A stretch of DNA of 59,923 nt from a virus. Shown in pieces: positions 6,489 to 19,116 of this stretch; the stretch's first letter is position 1; the number at the start of each line of letters is the position of its first letter. The position numbers and the translations under genes are program-made. Location of the stretch: IMG/VR virus record IMGVR_UViG_3300020471_000096, positions 1 to 59,923 of that record, one strand, 5' to 3'. The notes beneath the pieces are model-generated. The model was not told the DNA's origin, ran no database searches, and saw only the letters and a list, made by a program, of their open reading frames with translations.

Positions 6489-6859
6489 TATGCCCTCGTA
6501 TATTCTCTAGGATCATCAACGACAGCCTCTACTGTGTCATCGTTAATAAGTCTAAATTCTTCGCCTCTTAGTTTAAATCTTGTTCCAGAATAAGATCTGA
6601 AAATAACAAAATCACCTTCTTTACAGTATGGTCCGTCAGGAAACTTCTCTGCGTCTTTGTACGCAGCATCTCCCAATGCGATGACCAAACCTATAATAGA
6701 TGCGGTTTGCTCTAATCCTTTTAACTTATCTGGAATAATAACACCACCTTGAGTTTTTTCTTCTAACTTAGGTATTGCTATCAATAATTTGTAACCTTTT
6801 GGCTCCGGTAATTTACGAGTAGTATCTTCGTCTAGTTCTATCTTTTCTGCAGAGTACAT
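6488..6859 (-). CDS. GroES-like co-chaperonin
   Basis: 123 residues with a clear GroES (Cpn10) core. A first strand region KGYKLLIAIPKLEE is followed by the mobile-loop segment TQGGVIIPD, which would dock on host GroEL, then VIALGDAAY and the late KEGDFVIFRSYSGTRF strand pair. T4 gp31 is the known phage precedent, allowing GroEL to fold the phage coat protein. The placement directly upstream of scaffold and capsid genes supports a capsid-folding role. The ATG has a good AAGGA site, and the stop overlaps the next start (TAATG). Confidence 0.9.
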   Translation of the reverse strand: MYSAEKIELDEDTTRKLPEPKGYKLLIAIPKLEEKTQGGVIIPDKLKGLEQTASIIGLVIALGDAAYKDAEKFPDGPYCKEGDFVIFRSYSGTRFKLRGEEFRLINDDTVEAVVDDPREYTRA

Positions 6860-12500: not shown

Positions 12501-12794
12501 AATATCATGTTCCTTAGACCTGCGACCTTTACCAATGATAGCACTTTATTATCTTTGTTTGTAGTCTCATTTCGTGAAATATTCATTGCTGTCGATTTAA
12601 GAGGCATACAGCACATGTAAGCAGTTTAGGCTGTATTGCTACCTAAAAGTAAGTTTCAGCGTTTTTGTTGTCCACCTTGGATTACAGAAGATTTAGTCTT
12701 AGTAAGTAAAATAATGTTCCTATAAGTTAAATAATATCAACTTTAGTGCTTGTATTCTTAGTCTAAAAATTATATATAAATAGGACAGCCTCTG
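12501..12794 (+). promoter_or_regulatory. Divergent control region with predicted early promoter
   Basis: No gene is visible between terS (minus) and the first early gene (plus). The best promoter is TTGTAT (12750-12755) and TATATA (12773-12778) with a 17-base spacer. Transcription would start near 12785, just before the structured leader RNA. The rest is AT-rich without obvious repeats. Confidence 0.5.
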
Positions 12795-12976
12795 TTTGGC
12801 AACTCGTTTGAACTGTAAAGCAAACATCCCTTTTTTAACCTACTTGGGAAATTAGGATCTCGGAGACCGGAACTTGTTTTGGTCATGACCTCGAAAAGGC
12901 AAGAGCGATACAGCCCCCACAATTCGGTCTGATGAGGATGACGATATGGGCTAGTAGTTTCTTACGAGTTTCCAAA
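12795..12976 (+). ncRNA. Structured leader RNA of the early block, unknown class
   Basis: The ends form a closing helix: 12795-12799 pairs with 12972-12976 and 12801-12806 with 12965-12970, leaving a single C/T mismatch. Inside are a small hairpin (12807-12810 with 12821-12824), a five-base-pair helix (12840-12844 with 12953-12957), and a longer arm (857-861 with 934-939; 864-868 with 926-930; 870-876 with 920-925, with bulges; all plus 12000). It lies between the predicted promoter and the first early gene. The fold was found by eye and no known class matched. A CTGATGA at 12929 lacks the other hammerhead core parts. Confidence 0.6.
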
Positions 12977-13023
12977 TAGAGGTTGTAACAATTCAAATCA
13001 ATCAAACAACAATGGAGATCATT

Positions 13024-13380
13024 ATGTACAAGAAATTAAATAAAGACGAAATCAAGTTACTCAGACTATTATCTGATGCTTACAACTTTGGAAACATTGC
13101 TGATGTAGATAGTCCAACAGCCACAGAGTTTGGTGGTAAGTTTGTTGGCAACTACGAGACAATGGATTTAGTAAATGGATTAGATCACAATCTAGTTTCT
13201 CAGATTTGTAATCCAATATCTCAGATCATAACCTCGATGATTGGTAAAGAGCTACATGATCTTTGGATCAATGGATCAAACTACGATGTAGATTGGTTAA
13301 TCAATTTTACAGACAGCCAAGAGACAGTTGGCATTGAGCCATCAGAATTTGGTGGATGGAATGTTCCAAATGAAAGTTAA
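13024..13380 (+). CDS. First early gene, unknown function
   Basis: 118 residues, soluble, mildly acidic, with MYKKLNKDEIKLLRLLSDAYNF at the N-terminus and GKELHDLWINGSNYDVDW late. The ATG at 13024 is chosen over 13012 because the GGAG overlapping the earlier ATG serves as its ribosome site, the same arrangement as in the next two genes. Being first after the structured leader, it is probably expressed early. No family recognised. Confidence 0.75.
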   Translation: MYKKLNKDEIKLLRLLSDAYNFGNIADVDSPTATEFGGKFVGNYETMDLVNGLDHNLVSQICNPISQIITSMIGKELHDLWINGSNYDVDWLINFTDSQETVGIEPSEFGGWNVPNES

Positions 13381-13387
13381 AAAAAGG

Positions 13388-13405
13388 GGGGCAAGAAATT
13401 GCCCC
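13388..13405 (+). other. GNRA-capped GC hairpin before hammerhead 1
   Basis: GGGGCAA (13388-13394) pairs perfectly with TTGCCCC (13399-13405) around a GAAA tetraloop. It starts seven bases after the stop codon of the first early gene and ends two bases before the ribozyme. With no T-tract it is not a classical terminator. After ribozyme cleavage it would lie at the new mRNA 3' end. Confidence 0.85.
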
Positions 13406-13407
13406 TC

Positions 13408-13460
13408 AACTGTCATCAAGTGTGTGCTTGATCTGATGAGACCAAAAGGTCGAAACAGTT
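13408..13460 (+). ncRNA. Type III hammerhead ribozyme 1
   Basis: All core elements are present. Stem III: AACTGT (13408-13413) pairs with ACAGTT (13455-13460). The cleavage triplet is GTC, with predicted cut after C13414. Stem I: ATCAAG (13415-13420) pairs with CTTGAT (13427-13432), loop TGTGTG. Conserved box CTGATGA (13433-13439). Stem II: GACC (13440-13443) pairs with GGTC (13448-13451), loop AAAA. Conserved GAAA (13452-13455). Stems I and II are closed and stem III is open, hence type III. Expected to self-cleave between the first and second early genes, 20 bases before the next start. Confidence 0.92.
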
Positions 13461-13480
13461 AATCAACTATGGAGTATCAT

Positions 13481-13963
13481 ATGAATAAATATGAACAAAT
13501 TATTAAGAACTTAGAGCAAACCTTTGATGAGTTCGACAGAGAATACATTCAAAGAAAAATTAATGACTATCAAATGAAATACTCAGCCATTAAAAATTGG
13601 TGGAAAGCACCGACTAAAATTAATGGTCGTGTTGATTGGTATCATCTTCACAAAGTTGGTGGTGGCAAATCAATGGCTGAAAAATTGTATGGCATCAGCT
13701 TTCAGATGGTCAGAGAACTTGCTGTCAAAGATGCTGAGGCTGTCATCAAAGCTAGAAATAAAAAGATGGCTCTGAAACTGCAAAGTTTTGGCATCAATGA
13801 AATCTATAATACAAACCTCGTAATGAACTCTGATGGATTTCATGGTTACTACAATGTCAGAACTGACAAAGGTAATAAAACAATAACAATTAGCACAATC
13901 TTATGTGGTGGCTACAATATCCAAGCATTGCACTACAGAACATTGGTTAAAATATCTAAGTAA
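13481..13963 (+). CDS. Early gene flanked by two hammerhead ribozymes
   Basis: 160 basic residues, helical at the N-terminus (IIKNLEQTFDEFDREYIQRKIND) with WWKAPTKINGRVDWYHLH and a beta-rich C-terminal half (GYYNVRTDKGNKTITIS). No family recognised. The ATG at 13481 has GGAG six bases before it, while the upstream in-frame ATG at 13469 overlaps that site. Cleavage at both ribozymes would release this gene as its own short mRNA. Confidence 0.8.
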   Translation: MNKYEQIIKNLEQTFDEFDREYIQRKINDYQMKYSAIKNWWKAPTKINGRVDWYHLHKVGGGKSMAEKLYGISFQMVRELAVKDAEAVIKARNKKMALKLQSFGINEIYNTNLVMNSDGFHGYYNVRTDKGNKTITISTILCGGYNIQALHYRTLVKISK

Positions 13964-13968
13964 AATAT

Positions 13969-13988
13969 GGGGGCAAGAGATTGCCCCC
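13969..13988 (+). other. GNRA-capped GC hairpin before hammerhead 2
   Basis: GGGGGCAA (13969-13976) pairs perfectly with TTGCCCCC (13981-13988) around a GAGA tetraloop. It starts five bases after the stop codon of the preceding gene and directly abuts the second ribozyme. Same design as the hairpin at 13388-13405 with one more base pair and a different GNRA loop. Confidence 0.85.
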
Positions 13989-14045
13989 TTAACTGTAATG
14001 CAATGTGTGTTGCATCTGATGATCTCAAAAGAGTGAAACAGTTAA
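13989..14045 (+). ncRNA. Type III hammerhead ribozyme 2
   Basis: Stem III: TTAACTGT (13989-13996) pairs with ACAGTTAA (14038-14045). The cleavage triplet is GTA, predicted cut after A13997. Stem I: ATGCAA (13998-14003) pairs with TTGCAT (14010-14015), loop TGTGTG. CTGATGA box (14016-14022). Stem II: CTC/GAG (14024-14026 with 14031-14033), loop AAAA, with a U/U mismatch at the core-proximal pair (14023/14034) where G-C is usual. GAAA at 14035-14038. Stem I differs from ribozyme 1 but keeps pairing, while both loops are identical. The mismatch and GTA triplet may slow cleavage. Confidence 0.9.
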
Positions 14046-14063
14046 TCAAATATGGAGACAATC

Positions 14064-14519
14064 ATGAATAAAGAAAAATACTTAGAAAAATCTAAAATGC
14101 TAGTAAGACTATATACCAAATCAGTACAACAAGGTTTGGATGTAAAAGAACTCAGAAGAACAATGAAAAAAATAGCTATCGATGATATGCGATACTATCG
14201 TATTTGTGACGAGTTGGAAGAAAAGGCTAAGAGATTTTCTTACATCTATAAAAACTCAGAGGATGGATACGTTGTTCCTATTACTGAGGGATGCGATTGC
14301 GATGGTGTTCAATATCGAACTGTTGGTAAGCCACAAAAGGCTGTGCCTCTTGTTCTAGAAAAGAATGAAGACGAGGCTTACGAATGGGCAGATGGAACAA
14401 TGGACATTTATTATGTCAAACCATCTGTGGCATTGAGGATGGAAAATAAATCTGTTGATCGTGTAGCTGAGGCTTACGAAAATGGGCATCCACATTCAAT
14501 AACTTTATCAAGCATTTAA
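14064..14519 (+). CDS. Early gene downstream of hammerhead 2, unknown function
   Basis: 151 residues, basic helical N-terminal half (EYLEKSKMLVRLYTKSVQQG), then VVPITEGCDCDGVQYRTVG and an acidic C-terminus. The ATG at 14064 is preferred over 14052 because the GGAG lies between them. The leader shares AATCAA, ATGGAG and spacing with the two preceding genes, so all three probably use the same translation signal. No family recognised. Confidence 0.75.
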   Translation: MNKEKYLEKSKMLVRLYTKSVQQGLDVKELRRTMKKIAIDDMRYYRICDELEEKAKRFSYIYKNSEDGYVVPITEGCDCDGVQYRTVGKPQKAVPLVLEKNEDEAYEWADGTMDIYYVKPSVALRMENKSVDRVAEAYENGHPHSITLSSI

Positions 14520-14547
14520 CCAACCAACTGCAAGAGGAGATACTATA

Positions 14548-15174
14548 ATGCAGAAAACTAAATCAATCATTGCTGACGATGTCGTTAAGCAATTAGCTAA
14601 ACAAGAGCAACAGCACAACCTTTTAAAAGGATCTAACAAGCAGAACTCTGCTGACATGAGTGCTATTAGATTGGATCAGTATGCGACAGCAATGATACCA
14701 ATTAATTCAATACCTAGATCTGATACCGGTAATATTTCAGAGGATGCGACCAATGAATTATTGACCACGTTTCAGACACGATGCGATATGACAAAAGGTC
14801 AAGCTGACTTGTTTAAAAGACATTGTGTACTTTTTACAAACAAGCATGACCTACCATCAAGCAATCTTACCAAGACCTACATCTTGGATCTGTTTGCTAA
14901 GTTGGATATCAAATCCCAAGCTAGTTTGATTAATCACAATAAAGGAGAGGATGTTAAATCTCCATTGGATACAATCATCGATAAGCTAGTAGGTCTGAAG
15001 ACTAAGACCGGTAAGCAAAGAGATGGTTTGATTATGACAGCAAAAGAACTTGAAGAGTTCGAGGTCAGACTAAAGAACAGATTTGAGATTGCTGACAAAG
15101 GTAGGAAAGCAATTGATGATGCTGAGAAAGAGCAGAAAGTTGTAGACAAAACTGTTGAGGCTTTACTCTCTTAA
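14548..15174 (+). CDS. Early protein upstream of the AAA+ ATPase genes
   Basis: 208 residues with a strong AGGAG site. Helical and charged, with a C-terminal coiled coil (about 165-208, FEIADKGRKAIDDAEKEQKVVDKTVEALL). It is the first of five co-directional genes around the MoxR-like ATPase, so it could be an adaptor of that complex. This is inferred from position only. Confidence 0.7.
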   Translation: MQKTKSIIADDVVKQLAKQEQQHNLLKGSNKQNSADMSAIRLDQYATAMIPINSIPRSDTGNISEDATNELLTTFQTRCDMTKGQADLFKRHCVLFTNKHDLPSSNLTKTYILDLFAKLDIKSQASLINHNKGEDVKSPLDTIIDKLVGLKTKTGKQRDGLIMTAKELEEFEVRLKNRFEIADKGRKAIDDAEKEQKVVDKTVEALLS

Positions 15175-15576: not shown

Positions 15577-16653
15577 ATGCGAATACATGAAATGAGAACA
15601 GCAATCAAAAGCTGTATTATGAATAATTGGAGAGTAAGAGCCAATGGGGGCAGTAAGGATAACCTAGTCCATCCTTATGCTGAGAGTGGTGTTGGTCAAG
15701 GCAAGACAACATCTGTCAGATCATTGGTTACTGATCCGGATTTATTATCTTTAGCTAAAGAATTATTTGGCTACGATAAGGATAAGCTAGGCTTTTTAAA
15801 TTTTAGCTTGGCACAGCTAGATCCTAATGAGTATGCCGGTTGGTTAGTACCGGCTAAAGATGGCGAAAGCATGAGAAGATTACGACCTATGTTTGTGCCT
15901 ACTGAGGGATGTGGAATTATATTTGCTGACGAGGTCGCTCAAGCAAACCAAGTTCTGCACAACCTTTTTGGTCAAGCTGTAGATGAGCATCGTGTTGGAG
16001 ATTTTATCATTCCGGATGGATGGGTAATTGTTTCAGCCGGTAATCCTTTATCTGCAAGAGCCGGATCTAATAAGTTGCCATCACAACTTGCTGACAGATT
16101 TGATTTTCTTAATCTTGAGGTCAATACTGACGATGTATTAAGTTACTATGCATCCAATAATGTTGATCACAGAATTACATCATGGATTAAGTTTGATGAT
16201 CAGCATCTGCATAACTTTGATGTATCAGCAACCGGTAATGCTACACCAAGATCTTGCCAACGTGCCGGTGTTTTAATTGGCATGGATATAGATCACAGTA
16301 CATTACGAGGCATGTTGAATGGTCAGATTGGCGAGACAGCATCAGCTAGTTTAATGGCTCACATAAAGCTGTATGAAAAGCTACCGGATTTTGACAGCAT
16401 TGTTAAAGATCCTAGCACTACACAAATACCGGAAGATCGTGGTGTTTTATTTGCTTTGTGTGGATCACTAGCTAGTAAGATGAACATGACAAACTGTGCA
16501 AGTATCCTAACTTATATCCAAAGGATACCGGAGCAAGAGTTCATGGCATTTATGCTTAAAGATGCAGTACTAAGAAACAAGACCTTGGTTACTCATCAAG
16601 CTATGAAACAAGTATTAGGATCTCAAGGTAACTTGAAAGATCTATTACTTTAA
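15577..16653 (+). CDS. MoxR-like AAA+ ATPase
   Basis: 358 residues. Walker A in ESGVGQGKTTS (about 36-46), Walker B in GIIFADEVAQA (about 113-123), a sensor-1-like SAGNP (about 150), and an arginine-rich LADRFDF segment (about 170). This is the MoxR/CbbQ/GvpN branch, ATPases that remodel partner proteins together with VWA-domain proteins. The next gene encodes such a partner. A good AAGGAG site supports the start. Uncommon in a phage of this size. Confidence 0.85.
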   Translation: MRIHEMRTAIKSCIMNNWRVRANGGSKDNLVHPYAESGVGQGKTTSVRSLVTDPDLLSLAKELFGYDKDKLGFLNFSLAQLDPNEYAGWLVPAKDGESMRRLRPMFVPTEGCGIIFADEVAQANQVLHNLFGQAVDEHRVGDFIIPDGWVIVSAGNPLSARAGSNKLPSQLADRFDFLNLEVNTDDVLSYYASNNVDHRITSWIKFDDQHLHNFDVSATGNATPRSCQRAGVLIGMDIDHSTLRGMLNGQIGETASASLMAHIKLYEKLPDFDSIVKDPSTTQIPEDRGVLFALCGSLASKMNMTNCASILTYIQRIPEQEFMAFMLKDAVLRNKTLVTHQAMKQVLGSQGNLKDLLL

Positions 16654-16662
16654 AACTTTATA

Positions 16663-16694
16663 TCTGTGGTACTGCGTACCTGTAGTGCCACAGA
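16663..16694 (+). other. Stem-loop between ATPase and VWA genes
   Basis: TCTGTGGTACT (16663-16673) pairs with AGTGCCACAGA (16684-16694): eleven pairs with one G/T wobble, ten-base loop. It starts nine bases after the ATPase stop codon and is directly followed by the palindrome at 16697-16716. No U-tract abuts the stem, so it may stabilise the upstream mRNA 3' end or act as a weak terminator. Confidence 0.7.
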
Positions 16695-16696
16695 CA

Positions 16697-16716
16697 AAAA
16701 CTTTACGTAAACTTTT
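16697..16716. promoter_or_regulatory. TTTACGTAAA palindrome upstream of the VWA gene
   Basis: AAAACTTTACGTAAACTTTT, self-complementary except for the C/C pair at positions 5 and 16. It lies four bases before the TTGGAG ribosome site of the gene at 16730. It shares the flank AGAC before the arm with the copies at 20589 and 28614. Confidence 0.8.
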
Positions 16717-16729
16717 TTTGGAGATTTTA

Positions 16730-17950
16730 ATGCAGAATTTAAAACTAGAAGATAAGTTCTCAAAGATTAGGATACAGCTACTATGGGATCGTGACGATAA
16801 AGGTCATGCTTTTTATGGTGCTGTCTTAGTCAAGATGAAGATTATCGAAAAGAACAGCATCCCAACATTTGCAACTGATGGGCGAGACATATTCTATAAC
16901 AAAGAATTTGCTGAGAGTTTAGATTTCGAGCCACTCAAAGGTGTAGTTGTTCATGAGGTTGGTCATAGATTTCTTATGCACCATACAAGACAGCAAGAAC
17001 GTGATGCTGAGATTTGGAACATAGCATGTGATTTATCAATGAACCAAGTTCTTAAAAGATCCGGTTTTGTTTTACCAAAAGGTGCTTTGTTTGATCCACA
17101 GTTTGATGGATGGATGGCTGAAAAGATTTATAACTTTATCTATCCACAGATCAAAGCTAAACAGCAACAGCAACAGCAACAAGGTCAAGATGGTCAAGGC
17201 GATCAAGGGGATCAATCAGATAATGGCGATCCAACTTGGTTACAGCCACAATCATGGGGCAACATCGAAGACAATGTTACTGAGGGCATGTCTCAAGCTG
17301 AGATCAGCGAAGAAGAGGCTGATGTTAAAGAGGAGATATTCCAAGCTGTCAGACAAGCTAAAGAACGTGGAACATTACCGGCAGAGGTCAAGCAAATGGT
17401 CAAGGTTATGAAACGTGCTGAGATCAATTGGGAAGACGTTGTTGAAAGGCATCTTGAGGGCGATGTTCCTCATAATTATAGCTATCGCAGAATACATAAA
17501 AAGTTCTACTACACTCATGAGATGATTGCTCCAACACTTGAGCATATTGGTGTTGGTCATATTGTTGTGGCTGTGGATAGTTCCGGCTCTGTATCAAATA
17601 AAGAGTTGCAGTATTTTCTTGGTGGTCTCAATGCTATGGCATTAGATCTTAAACCAAAATCTATAACTGTAATTACATGCGACAGCAAAATACAAAATGT
17701 TATCAAGTATGATCAAGGCGATGAAATAAAAATGATATCTGCTGATGGTCGTGGTGGTACATGTGTTATGCCGGTGTTCAACTACATTAAAGAAAATGAT
17801 CTTGAGGTAGACAGCTTTATTTATTTTACTGACATGGGCATATATGATTTTCCTACAGAGGAACAGCCATATCCGGTTCTGTGGGTAAGCACAGACCTAC
17901 GTGCTGATAATGCACCTATTGGTCAAACAACCTATCTGAAAGTGGCTTAA
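16730..17950 (+). CDS. Metallopeptidase-like/VWA protein (DUF2201 type)
   Basis: 406 residues. The N-terminal part carries a zinc-metallopeptidase signature VHEVGHRFLMHH (about 73-84) followed by IWNIACDLSMNQ. A Gln-rich linker (about 145-165) precedes a C-terminal VWA-like domain starting VVAVDSSGSV (about 280), whose DSSGS metal site is intact, and ending at FTDMGIYDFP. This is the usual partner of MoxR-type ATPases, and the ATPase gene is immediately upstream. The ATG at 16730 is set by GGAG six bases before it. Confidence 0.85.
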   Translation: MQNLKLEDKFSKIRIQLLWDRDDKGHAFYGAVLVKMKIIEKNSIPTFATDGRDIFYNKEFAESLDFEPLKGVVVHEVGHRFLMHHTRQQERDAEIWNIACDLSMNQVLKRSGFVLPKGALFDPQFDGWMAEKIYNFIYPQIKAKQQQQQQQGQDGQGDQGDQSDNGDPTWLQPQSWGNIEDNVTEGMSQAEISEEEADVKEEIFQAVRQAKERGTLPAEVKQMVKVMKRAEINWEDVVERHLEGDVPHNYSYRRIHKKFYYTHEMIAPTLEHIGVGHIVVAVDSSGSVSNKELQYFLGGLNAMALDLKPKSITVITCDSKIQNVIKYDQGDEIKMISADGRGGTCVMPVFNYIKENDLEVDSFIYFTDMGIYDFPTEEQPYPVLWVSTDLRADNAPIGQTTYLKVA

Positions 17951-19116
17951 TGCTACTTTTAGATAAAAACAAGGCTCTAGGAACGTCACACAGAGGCGAA
18001 ACGATATGTCTGTGTGTGATTGTACCTAGGGATTTTAACGATGCTGATATAGGAATGTGTGTTCCTACTGATGATTGCGAAAGCATGAAATCAGCCAACT
18101 ACTATCATTATATGGAGTATTTTATGATACATAATTTTGGAAAAAAACAAGATCCTAAATCTCAAGAGTTTAAGGATCAAATAGTCTTAAAGCATTATCT
18201 CAACTTTTTAAACGAGGGATACAAAGCATTTGGATTAAACGAAAACCAAAAAGCTAGTCTAGTAAAAGCCGGATCTAATTATTCATATCATGCAGACGAT
18301 TTATCTGCTGAAGAAAAAGATTTTGTTTTTATGTTTACCAAGCACAAAGATCATTTTGGCAATCATGGTTTAGACAGCATTTACAATTGTAGTGCTTGGA
18401 TCAAGCAACACAGAAAGGCTCGTAAAGATAAGTCTGCCATTTACAGCAATAAGATTGATGGCAAAAAAGTATTTCGTAAAGAACGTAATTACGAGCATGG
18501 TTTCTTCAATGGTCAAGCTGTTAACAGCAAGTATGCTGTACTCACTAATGCCTTTGCTAAAAAATGGTGGGATGACAATATGGCTAGAACCAATGTCAAG
18601 ATTAGTGCTGATGCATTAAGAGCAGAAACAGCTATTAAACCATCTACTGTAGGAAGAGCAGATAATTGGCAGTACTACGAGCATTTCAATGAGGTTTCTT
18701 TGTCTCCATCATGGTTTAAAAATGTCTACATGAAAGGTTTGGCAACAACAGTATACAAAAGCAAAACAGCATTTGTTGCTAGTGCCAAGCCTCTCAAAGT
18801 TTCTGACAGAATTACAGCTAATGGTCTTGAGGCTTATACTGTTGATATCATTACAAGCCACGATGGTATTATCAGCATGGAGAAAGATCTGTATTATTTG
18901 GTTTACCAAACAAAGGCTTGGACAATTGAAGAAACACAGCAAGGCATGGGCAATATACCTTTTAGGGGCAACGACAGAGAAACTGCTCAAACTTACAATA
19001 ATCGTAGGTATAACATAGCTGAGACTATAAACTGTGCATCCTCAAACTTTAGAAGAGCAGAGAATGTCATGAGTGGCAGAGTTCAGCGAAACATACTTAA
19101 TGCAATGGGAGTGTAA
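17950..19116 (+). CDS. Unknown protein coupled to the VWA gene
   Basis: 388 residues. The ATG shares a base with the VWA gene stop. The protein is soluble, rich in Tyr, Asn and His, with segments such as YHYMEYFMIHNFGKK and ENVMSGRVQRNILNAMG. No catalytic motif or known family recognised. Its coupling to the ATPase/VWA pair suggests it is a substrate or third component. The ribosome site for the first ATG is weak, so an internal start is possible. Confidence 0.7.
   Translation: MLLLDKNKALGTSHRGETICLCVIVPRDFNDADIGMCVPTDDCESMKSANYYHYMEYFMIHNFGKKQDPKSQEFKDQIVLKHYLNFLNEGYKAFGLNENQKASLVKAGSNYSYHADDLSAEEKDFVFMFTKHKDHFGNHGLDSIYNCSAWIKQHRKARKDKSAIYSNKIDGKKVFRKERNYEHGFFNGQAVNSKYAVLTNAFAKKWWDDNMARTNVKISADALRAETAIKPSTVGRADNWQYYEHFNEVSLSPSWFKNVYMKGLATTVYKSKTAFVASAKPLKVSDRITANGLEAYTVDIITSHDGIISMEKDLYYLVYQTKAWTIEETQQGMGNIPFRGNDRETAQTYNNRRYNIAETINCASSNFRRAENVMSGRVQRNILNAMGV

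Follow-up and report, generated by a model that had tools for sequence, protein, structure and literature searches.

The window analysed here, from a marine phage, is positions 1 to 59,923 of IMG/VR record IMGVR_UViG_3300020471_000096. On its plus strand, between two open reading frames, lies a complete 53-base type III hammerhead (copy 1, 13408..13460; 72.5 bits with model R1, see below). It reads AACTGTC^ATCAAGTGTGTGCTTGATCTGATGAGACCAAAAGGTCGAAACAGTT, the caret marking the predicted cleavage after 13414. Stem III (AACTGT/ACAGTT) occupies 13408-13413/13455-13460, stem I (ATCAAG/CTTGAT, with the loop TGTGTG) 13415-13420/13427-13432, and stem II (GACC/GGTC, with the loop AAAA) 13440-13443/13448-13451. 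All three stems are perfect; stems I and II are loop-closed and stem III is open, which makes the element type III. The conserved core comprises CTGATGA (13433-13439), GAA (13452-13454) and A15.1 at 13455. T13413/A13455 is the A15.1-U16.1 pair, the NUH cleavage triplet is GTC (GUC in the RNA, 13412-13414) with C17 at 13414, and the conserved G10.1-C11.1 pair is G13440-C13451. The original prediction of a complete hammerhead at this place was confirmed to the base in core, triplet and stems, and the type, boundaries and cleavage position it gave were right.

The stop codon of the upstream frame lies 5' of the ribozyme, and a G+C-rich hairpin (13386..13407, plus strand, core GGGGCAA-GAAA-TTGCCCC, found with RNAfold) separates that stop from copy 1. 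On the 3' side, ORF 13481-13963 starts 20 nt past the ribozyme, with a Shine-Dalgarno-like GGAG (13471-13474) before its ATG at 13481 (13471..13483, plus strand, by sequence reading). Both the location between two frames and the spacing to the ribosome site had been correctly predicted. The description of the flanking genes as early, derived from gene position only, was not confirmed: neither ORF 13481-13963 nor the other genes around copies 1 and 2 had a family match in Pfam or PHROG.

The minimum-energy structure of copy 1 (RNAfold) is the hammerhead fold plus one additional G-U pair in stem I. With its flanks (13370-13500) copy 1 has a z-score of -4.3, mostly because of the additional hairpin just upstream (13386-13407). 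A covariance search, which had been proposed as a check, gave a divided answer: there was no hit at Rfam gathering scores, and RF00163 was hit at relaxed scores (22.2 bits, E = 0.0042). The RF00163 gathering score (34 bits) is a detection threshold and not a defining trait of hammerheads, and because the top-scoring member of the Rfam clan on copy 1 is the permuted type I model, Rfam as sole judge is weak evidence either way. Model R1, made from 91 copies and run with filters off, scores the three hammerheads of the window at 70-73 bits and the next-best place at 15 bits; since it contains the window sequences, these scores are not independent evidence and show only that the window holds no fourth type III copy. 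Type I and type II hammerheads were likewise absent from the window.

The three type III hammerheads in the window each lie 20-28 nt 5' of a start codon. Copy 2 (13991..14043, plus strand, 73.4 bits; U10.1.U11.1, GUA triplet) begins 583 bases beyond copy 1, is 80% identical to the copy 1 region, is predicted to cleave after 13997 and sits 5' of an ORF starting at 14064. Copy 3 (18043..18095, plus strand, 70.0 bits; U10.1.U11.1, AUA triplet), with predicted cleavage after 18049, falls inside a mechanically called ORF (17950-19116) that is over-extended. The real start of the gene after copy 3 is likely the ATG at 18124, which is preceded by GGAG, and copy 3 would therefore be intercistronic too. 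The equivalent junction carries the same hammerhead in six relatives (L001, L002, L004, L006, L015 and L016). The hammerhead is not the most stable structure predicted for copies 2 and 3: a competing fold lies lower in energy by 0.7 kcal/mol in copy 2 and by 2.1 kcal/mol in copy 3, so that their predicted cleavage may be partial or slow. Just 5' of copy 3 (15577-17950), an AAA ATPase (phrog_1297) is followed by a DUF2201 metallopeptidase/VWA-like protein, a MoxR-VWA-like pair.

The hairpin found upstream of copy 1 also precedes copy 2 (GGGGGCAA-GAGA-TTGCCCCC, 13969..13988, plus strand) and the orthologues in L001, L002 and L015-L018. A hairpin with z < -2 is present in the 45 nt upstream of 54% of viral type III copies, compared with 8% of random sites and 27% of other post-stop spacers. 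The hairpins at 13386-13407 and 13969-13988 resemble intrinsic terminators when their minus strand is considered (stem, then T-run), and they could stop antisense transcription as well.

The wider family was collected by scanning IMG/VR with the pattern TGTGN{4,12}CTGANGANNNNRAAANNNNGAAA, in which loop and core letters are fixed and no pairing is imposed. The matches listed come from at least 119 IMG/VR stretches with 178 distinct matches, and among those listed 174/178 form all three stems; with the free positions randomised, 0.025 would be expected in all. When 91 diverse copies are aligned over 53 columns with no gaps, pairing is found in 92.3% of pair cells (99.8% in stem I), percentages that are biased upward because the rows were picked by a pairing filter. 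The 174/178 test escapes that objection, as do the double changes, which number 524 against 143 in shuffles and occur at 15/16 pairs. The covariation score of the 91 copies is 0.914, compared with 0.222 after shuffling and at most 0.135 with the structure slid. Loop letters (UGUGUR, RAAA), which also belonged to the search pattern, are near-constant while the stems change. Judging from these comparisons, copy 1 is close to certain to be a real, selected hammerhead.

In sTRSV, a UGUG in loop I occurs together with a stem II tetraloop, and the phage copies share both. They also resemble sTRSV-like type III hammerheads in the core (CUGANGA / GAAA), the A15.1-U16.1 pair, the NUH triplet and three stems with stem III open. 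Unlike the sTRSV-like elements, which reside in a circular RNA replicon, the phage copies are intercistronic in a DNA phage, and a U10.1.U11.1 mismatch occurs in half of those from viruses.

Position relative to genes is highly regular. An ORF of 45 aa or more has its ATG no further than 60 nt downstream of the ribozyme in 159/168 testable viral type III cases (95%; median 23 nt); for random positions on the same strand the figure is 27%. Type I hammerheads are also frequent in these phage contigs, and 88% of them are followed by an ORF start at a distance of up to 60 nt (control 25%). The number of type III copies in whole records is 1-5, and in 22/23 records they cluster on a single strand, mostly within a few kb. 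Intercistronic use had originally been called unusual. Such use is widespread in these phages: the window has three copies and uncultured phages have hundreds, and it was already described in 2011 (PMC3088659).

The best clue to function comes from synteny. Relatives have the genes flanking the window copies in other orders, with a ribozyme at the new junctions. In L004 and L006 the ribozymes combine stem I from one junction with stem II from another, and one junction of L004 has lost the ribozyme and kept the hairpin. A type I hammerhead occupies the equivalent junction in L003, L005, L019 and L020 (CCTAG CTGATGA GACCTAATGAGGTC GAA ACA...TGT A^CTAGG). All that types I and III have in common is the cut itself and the chemistry of the ends, and therefore cleavage at the gene boundary seems likely to be the selected trait. 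The occurrence of type III, type I or no ribozyme at the same junctions of close relatives amounts to a natural experiment that points to the boundary cut as the feature retained. Serial type I hammerheads stand before successive small phage genes in L047 (7496-9975, six) and L087 (8538-10408, four). In L015, a type I hammerhead at 6735 precedes a gene starting ATGCAGAA, and the corresponding window junction (14519-14548) is without one, which is apparently a recent gain or loss of a type I hammerhead.

No close named phage matched the window by megablast. The nearest terminases, 52-56% identical, belong to phage 023Pt_psg01, Pelagibacter phages HTVC027P and HTVC023P, and phage DSL-LC04, and a hammerhead of this kind is absent from all four of these cultured relatives. 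Many junctions in the hammerhead-bearing genomes also have no ribozyme. Together with the loss in L004, these absences indicate that the ribozyme is not essential.

The best overall explanation, and in our judgement a quite probable one, is that self-cleaving type III hammerheads process the rightward polycistronic phage transcript without a host RNase. Stems I, II and III would fold during or after passage of the polymerase, the UGUGUG of loop I would dock on the RAAA tetraloop of stem II, and self-cleavage would take place 3' of nucleotide 17. This would leave a 2',3'-cyclic phosphate at the end of the upstream mRNA, a few nucleotides past a strong hairpin; after a cut at copy 1, its 3' end structure would be the hairpin at 13386..13407. 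The downstream mRNA would begin at the first base of stem I, which would carry a 5'-OH and give the mRNA a closed hairpin end; stem II would come next, and then ribosome site and start codon. In this way the operon would be split into gene-sized mRNAs with no host nuclease involved, and these would probably have separate lifetimes. Self-cleavage itself is very probable and operon cutting as the selected role probable, while stabilisation by the 5'-OH/hairpin ends may or may not apply, with the balance slightly against it. Type I ribozymes would stay with the upstream fragment, and a hairpin at the downstream 5' end therefore cannot be a general feature of the model. A promoter scan of the region found only chance-level signals.

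A comparable division of labour is seen in the T7 early operon, where RNase III sites split the polycistronic phage mRNA at intercistronic hairpins. Those sites depend on a host protein nuclease and yield 5'-phosphate and 3'-OH ends, whereas the window elements would cut themselves and leave 5'-OH and cyclic phosphate. Both the hammerhead class and its intercistronic role are already known from the 2011 report of Perreault et al. (PMC3088659). According to that report, prophage hammerheads were proposed to cut long phage RNA into gene-length mRNAs, several of them flank single genes or small gene blocks, and cleavage of the clustered ones was shown in vitro and, for the A. tumefaciens set, also in E. 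coli. Several hammerheads between co-directional phage genes are found here as well, three of them in the window. The present elements differ from those clusters in belonging to uncultured, mostly marine phages, in the preceding hairpin and in the swap of types I and III at orthologous junctions. The same report places the HHphage hammerhead of haloviruses HF1/HF2 13 nt 5' of a phage gene start codon, with an mRNA 5' end at most 3 nt from the cleavage site; this is an element of an archaeal virus, with core insertions near C3 and a single copy described. Theta ribozymes of gut phages (PMC10879173) are also small self-cleaving RNAs in Caudoviricetes with a proposed role in RNA processing, but they have an HDV-like fold and are linked to tRNA genes, not located at mRNA junctions. 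What is new is how abundant they are in marine phages, the cassette of hairpin and ribozyme, the exchange of types I and III, and the core covariation between 11.1 and 17 described below. The junction comparison bears on the biological role of bacterial and phage hammerheads, a question that dates from their discovery. The processing model predicts exact 5' ends, which can be searched for in marine metatranscriptomes, and the elements would represent compact natural processing sites for cutting polycistronic messages.

Cleavage could alternatively act as negative control, exposing the fragments to decay and thereby lowering expression of the flanking genes. It is general knowledge that cutting of an mRNA often speeds its decay and that 5'-OH ends can be re-phosphorylated. 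Against this, a strong hairpin would often end the upstream pieces, and one would begin the downstream type III pieces; a 3' hairpin and a closed 5' stem end would be expected to slow bacterial mRNA decay, and we consider negative control unlikely. Regulation of the cut by a ligand, protein or ion, switching the downstream gene on or off in the manner of glmS or an aptazyme, is a little less likely again. The position just 5' of the ribosome site would suit such a device, and strong and weak core variants side by side could tune rates, but a sensor domain would not fit into 53 nt with loops of 6 nt and 4 nt, and the downstream genes vary. Moreover, the ribosome site is predicted to be as accessible in the cut RNA (0.55) as in the uncut one (0.54), which fits processing and led us to reject a translation switch through cleavage.

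The shuffling of gene order and cassettes among relatives, together with the mixed stems of the L004 and L006 ribozymes, could also be read as the mark of a recombination linker or selfish insert, with hairpin and ribozyme serving as a shared spacer for gene-cassette exchange and cleavage being incidental. This reading is improbable: compensatory stem changes and invariant core letters indicate selection on the RNA fold, unrelated type I ribozymes take type III places, and mobile-element features were not noticed on unsystematic inspection. A chance resemblance or a decayed, inactive motif, suggested by the score below the Rfam gathering level, has a practically negligible probability; chance was rejected in view of the conservation, the covariation and the 174 complete folds among the matches listed against a shuffle expectation of 0.025.

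Apart from its role as a processing site, the hammerhead core shows an unexpected covariation. About half of the viral copies have U.U in place of the usual G-C at 10.1/11.1; the 2011 report describes U10.1-U11.1 as surprising but tolerated natural variation, and a coupling between 11.1 and 17 is not mentioned in the sections consulted (PMC3088659). Among 189 distinct viral type III copies, with proportions valid for the sub-class captured by the search pattern only, U.U cores have A17 in 87 cases, C17 in 4 and U17 in 8, and G-C cores have C17 in 54, A17 in 9 and U17 in 2. Cores with A.A have U17 (10) or C17 (4) and never A17, and A17 accompanies all G.U (8/8) and C.U (1/1) cores. Type I hammerheads of the same contigs agree (U.U with A17 in 16/16; G-C with C17 in 29 and A17 in 4). 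When nucleotide 17 was permuted only within the same locus, and lineage effects were thereby removed, 67 complementary combinations were observed and 35 expected (p ~5e-5); the partner in this test was 10.1, which is identical to 11.1 in U.U and A.A cores and is G in cores with C11.1.

Coupling was initially attributed to 10.1 and 17, a version that was replaced by 11.1 and 17. Predictions for A10.1 and G10.1/U11.1 copies were fixed before those copies were scanned for. New A10.1 copies, predicted to favour U17, had U17 in 6/10 and A17 in 0/10. For G10.1/U11.1 copies, A17 was predicted if the partner is 11.1 and C17 if it is 10.1, and A17 was found in 6/6 independent groups; position 11.1, the neighbour of the general base G12, is therefore the better partner for 17. 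The reciprocal U10.1/C11.1 scan, meant to discriminate a second time between the two partners, returned zero matches in the whole collection and so shows only that such cores are absent from it. The apparent rule is U11.1 with A17, A11.1 with U17 or C17, and C11.1 with C17, and the statistical coupling is, at the level of sequence, well supported. Bacterial copies, mostly from Patescibacteria, are nearly all G-C and have C17, U17 or A17, so that the rule constrains non-G-C cores and not all hammerheads. We found no publication on an 11.1-17 coupling in a search whose coverage omitted most subscription journals. If physical, the coupling would be an unrecognised interaction in one of the best-studied ribozyme active sites. 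We tentatively suggest, while regarding it as somewhat doubtful, that hairpin and ribozyme at cistron boundaries form a distinct operon-punctuation system with interchangeable types I and III, and that the previously undescribed coupling in its core reflects a contact or conformational state outside the accepted interactions.

The same pattern also matched bacterial contigs (L160-L271), where 66/142 matches are full type III hammerheads. Their hosts are mostly Patescibacteria (Saccharibacteria, Parcubacteria, Kaiserbacteria and others), and a literature search with the same coverage found no publication linking hammerhead ribozymes with Patescibacteria. A GWTCTTT-like box lies within 40 nt 3' of 16/59 bacterial hammerheads, compared with 1.6% in the control and 0/171 in viruses. 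One Candidatus Parcubacteria MAG contig (JANLIU010000041.1; L185 2475-6530) has nine type III hammerheads on one strand within ~4 kb, with near-identical stem III (CGCTGTTC) and differing stems I and II.

A further structured element may lie upstream of the hammerheads, in a conserved leader of about 220 nt 5' of the first rightward gene of the window (12780-12990), for which Rfam contains no match. It folds into a long interrupted helix (CAGCC...GGTTG) around several hairpins, shows two-sided changes at 16 pairs in 12 relatives, and looks like an undescribed structured phage RNA.
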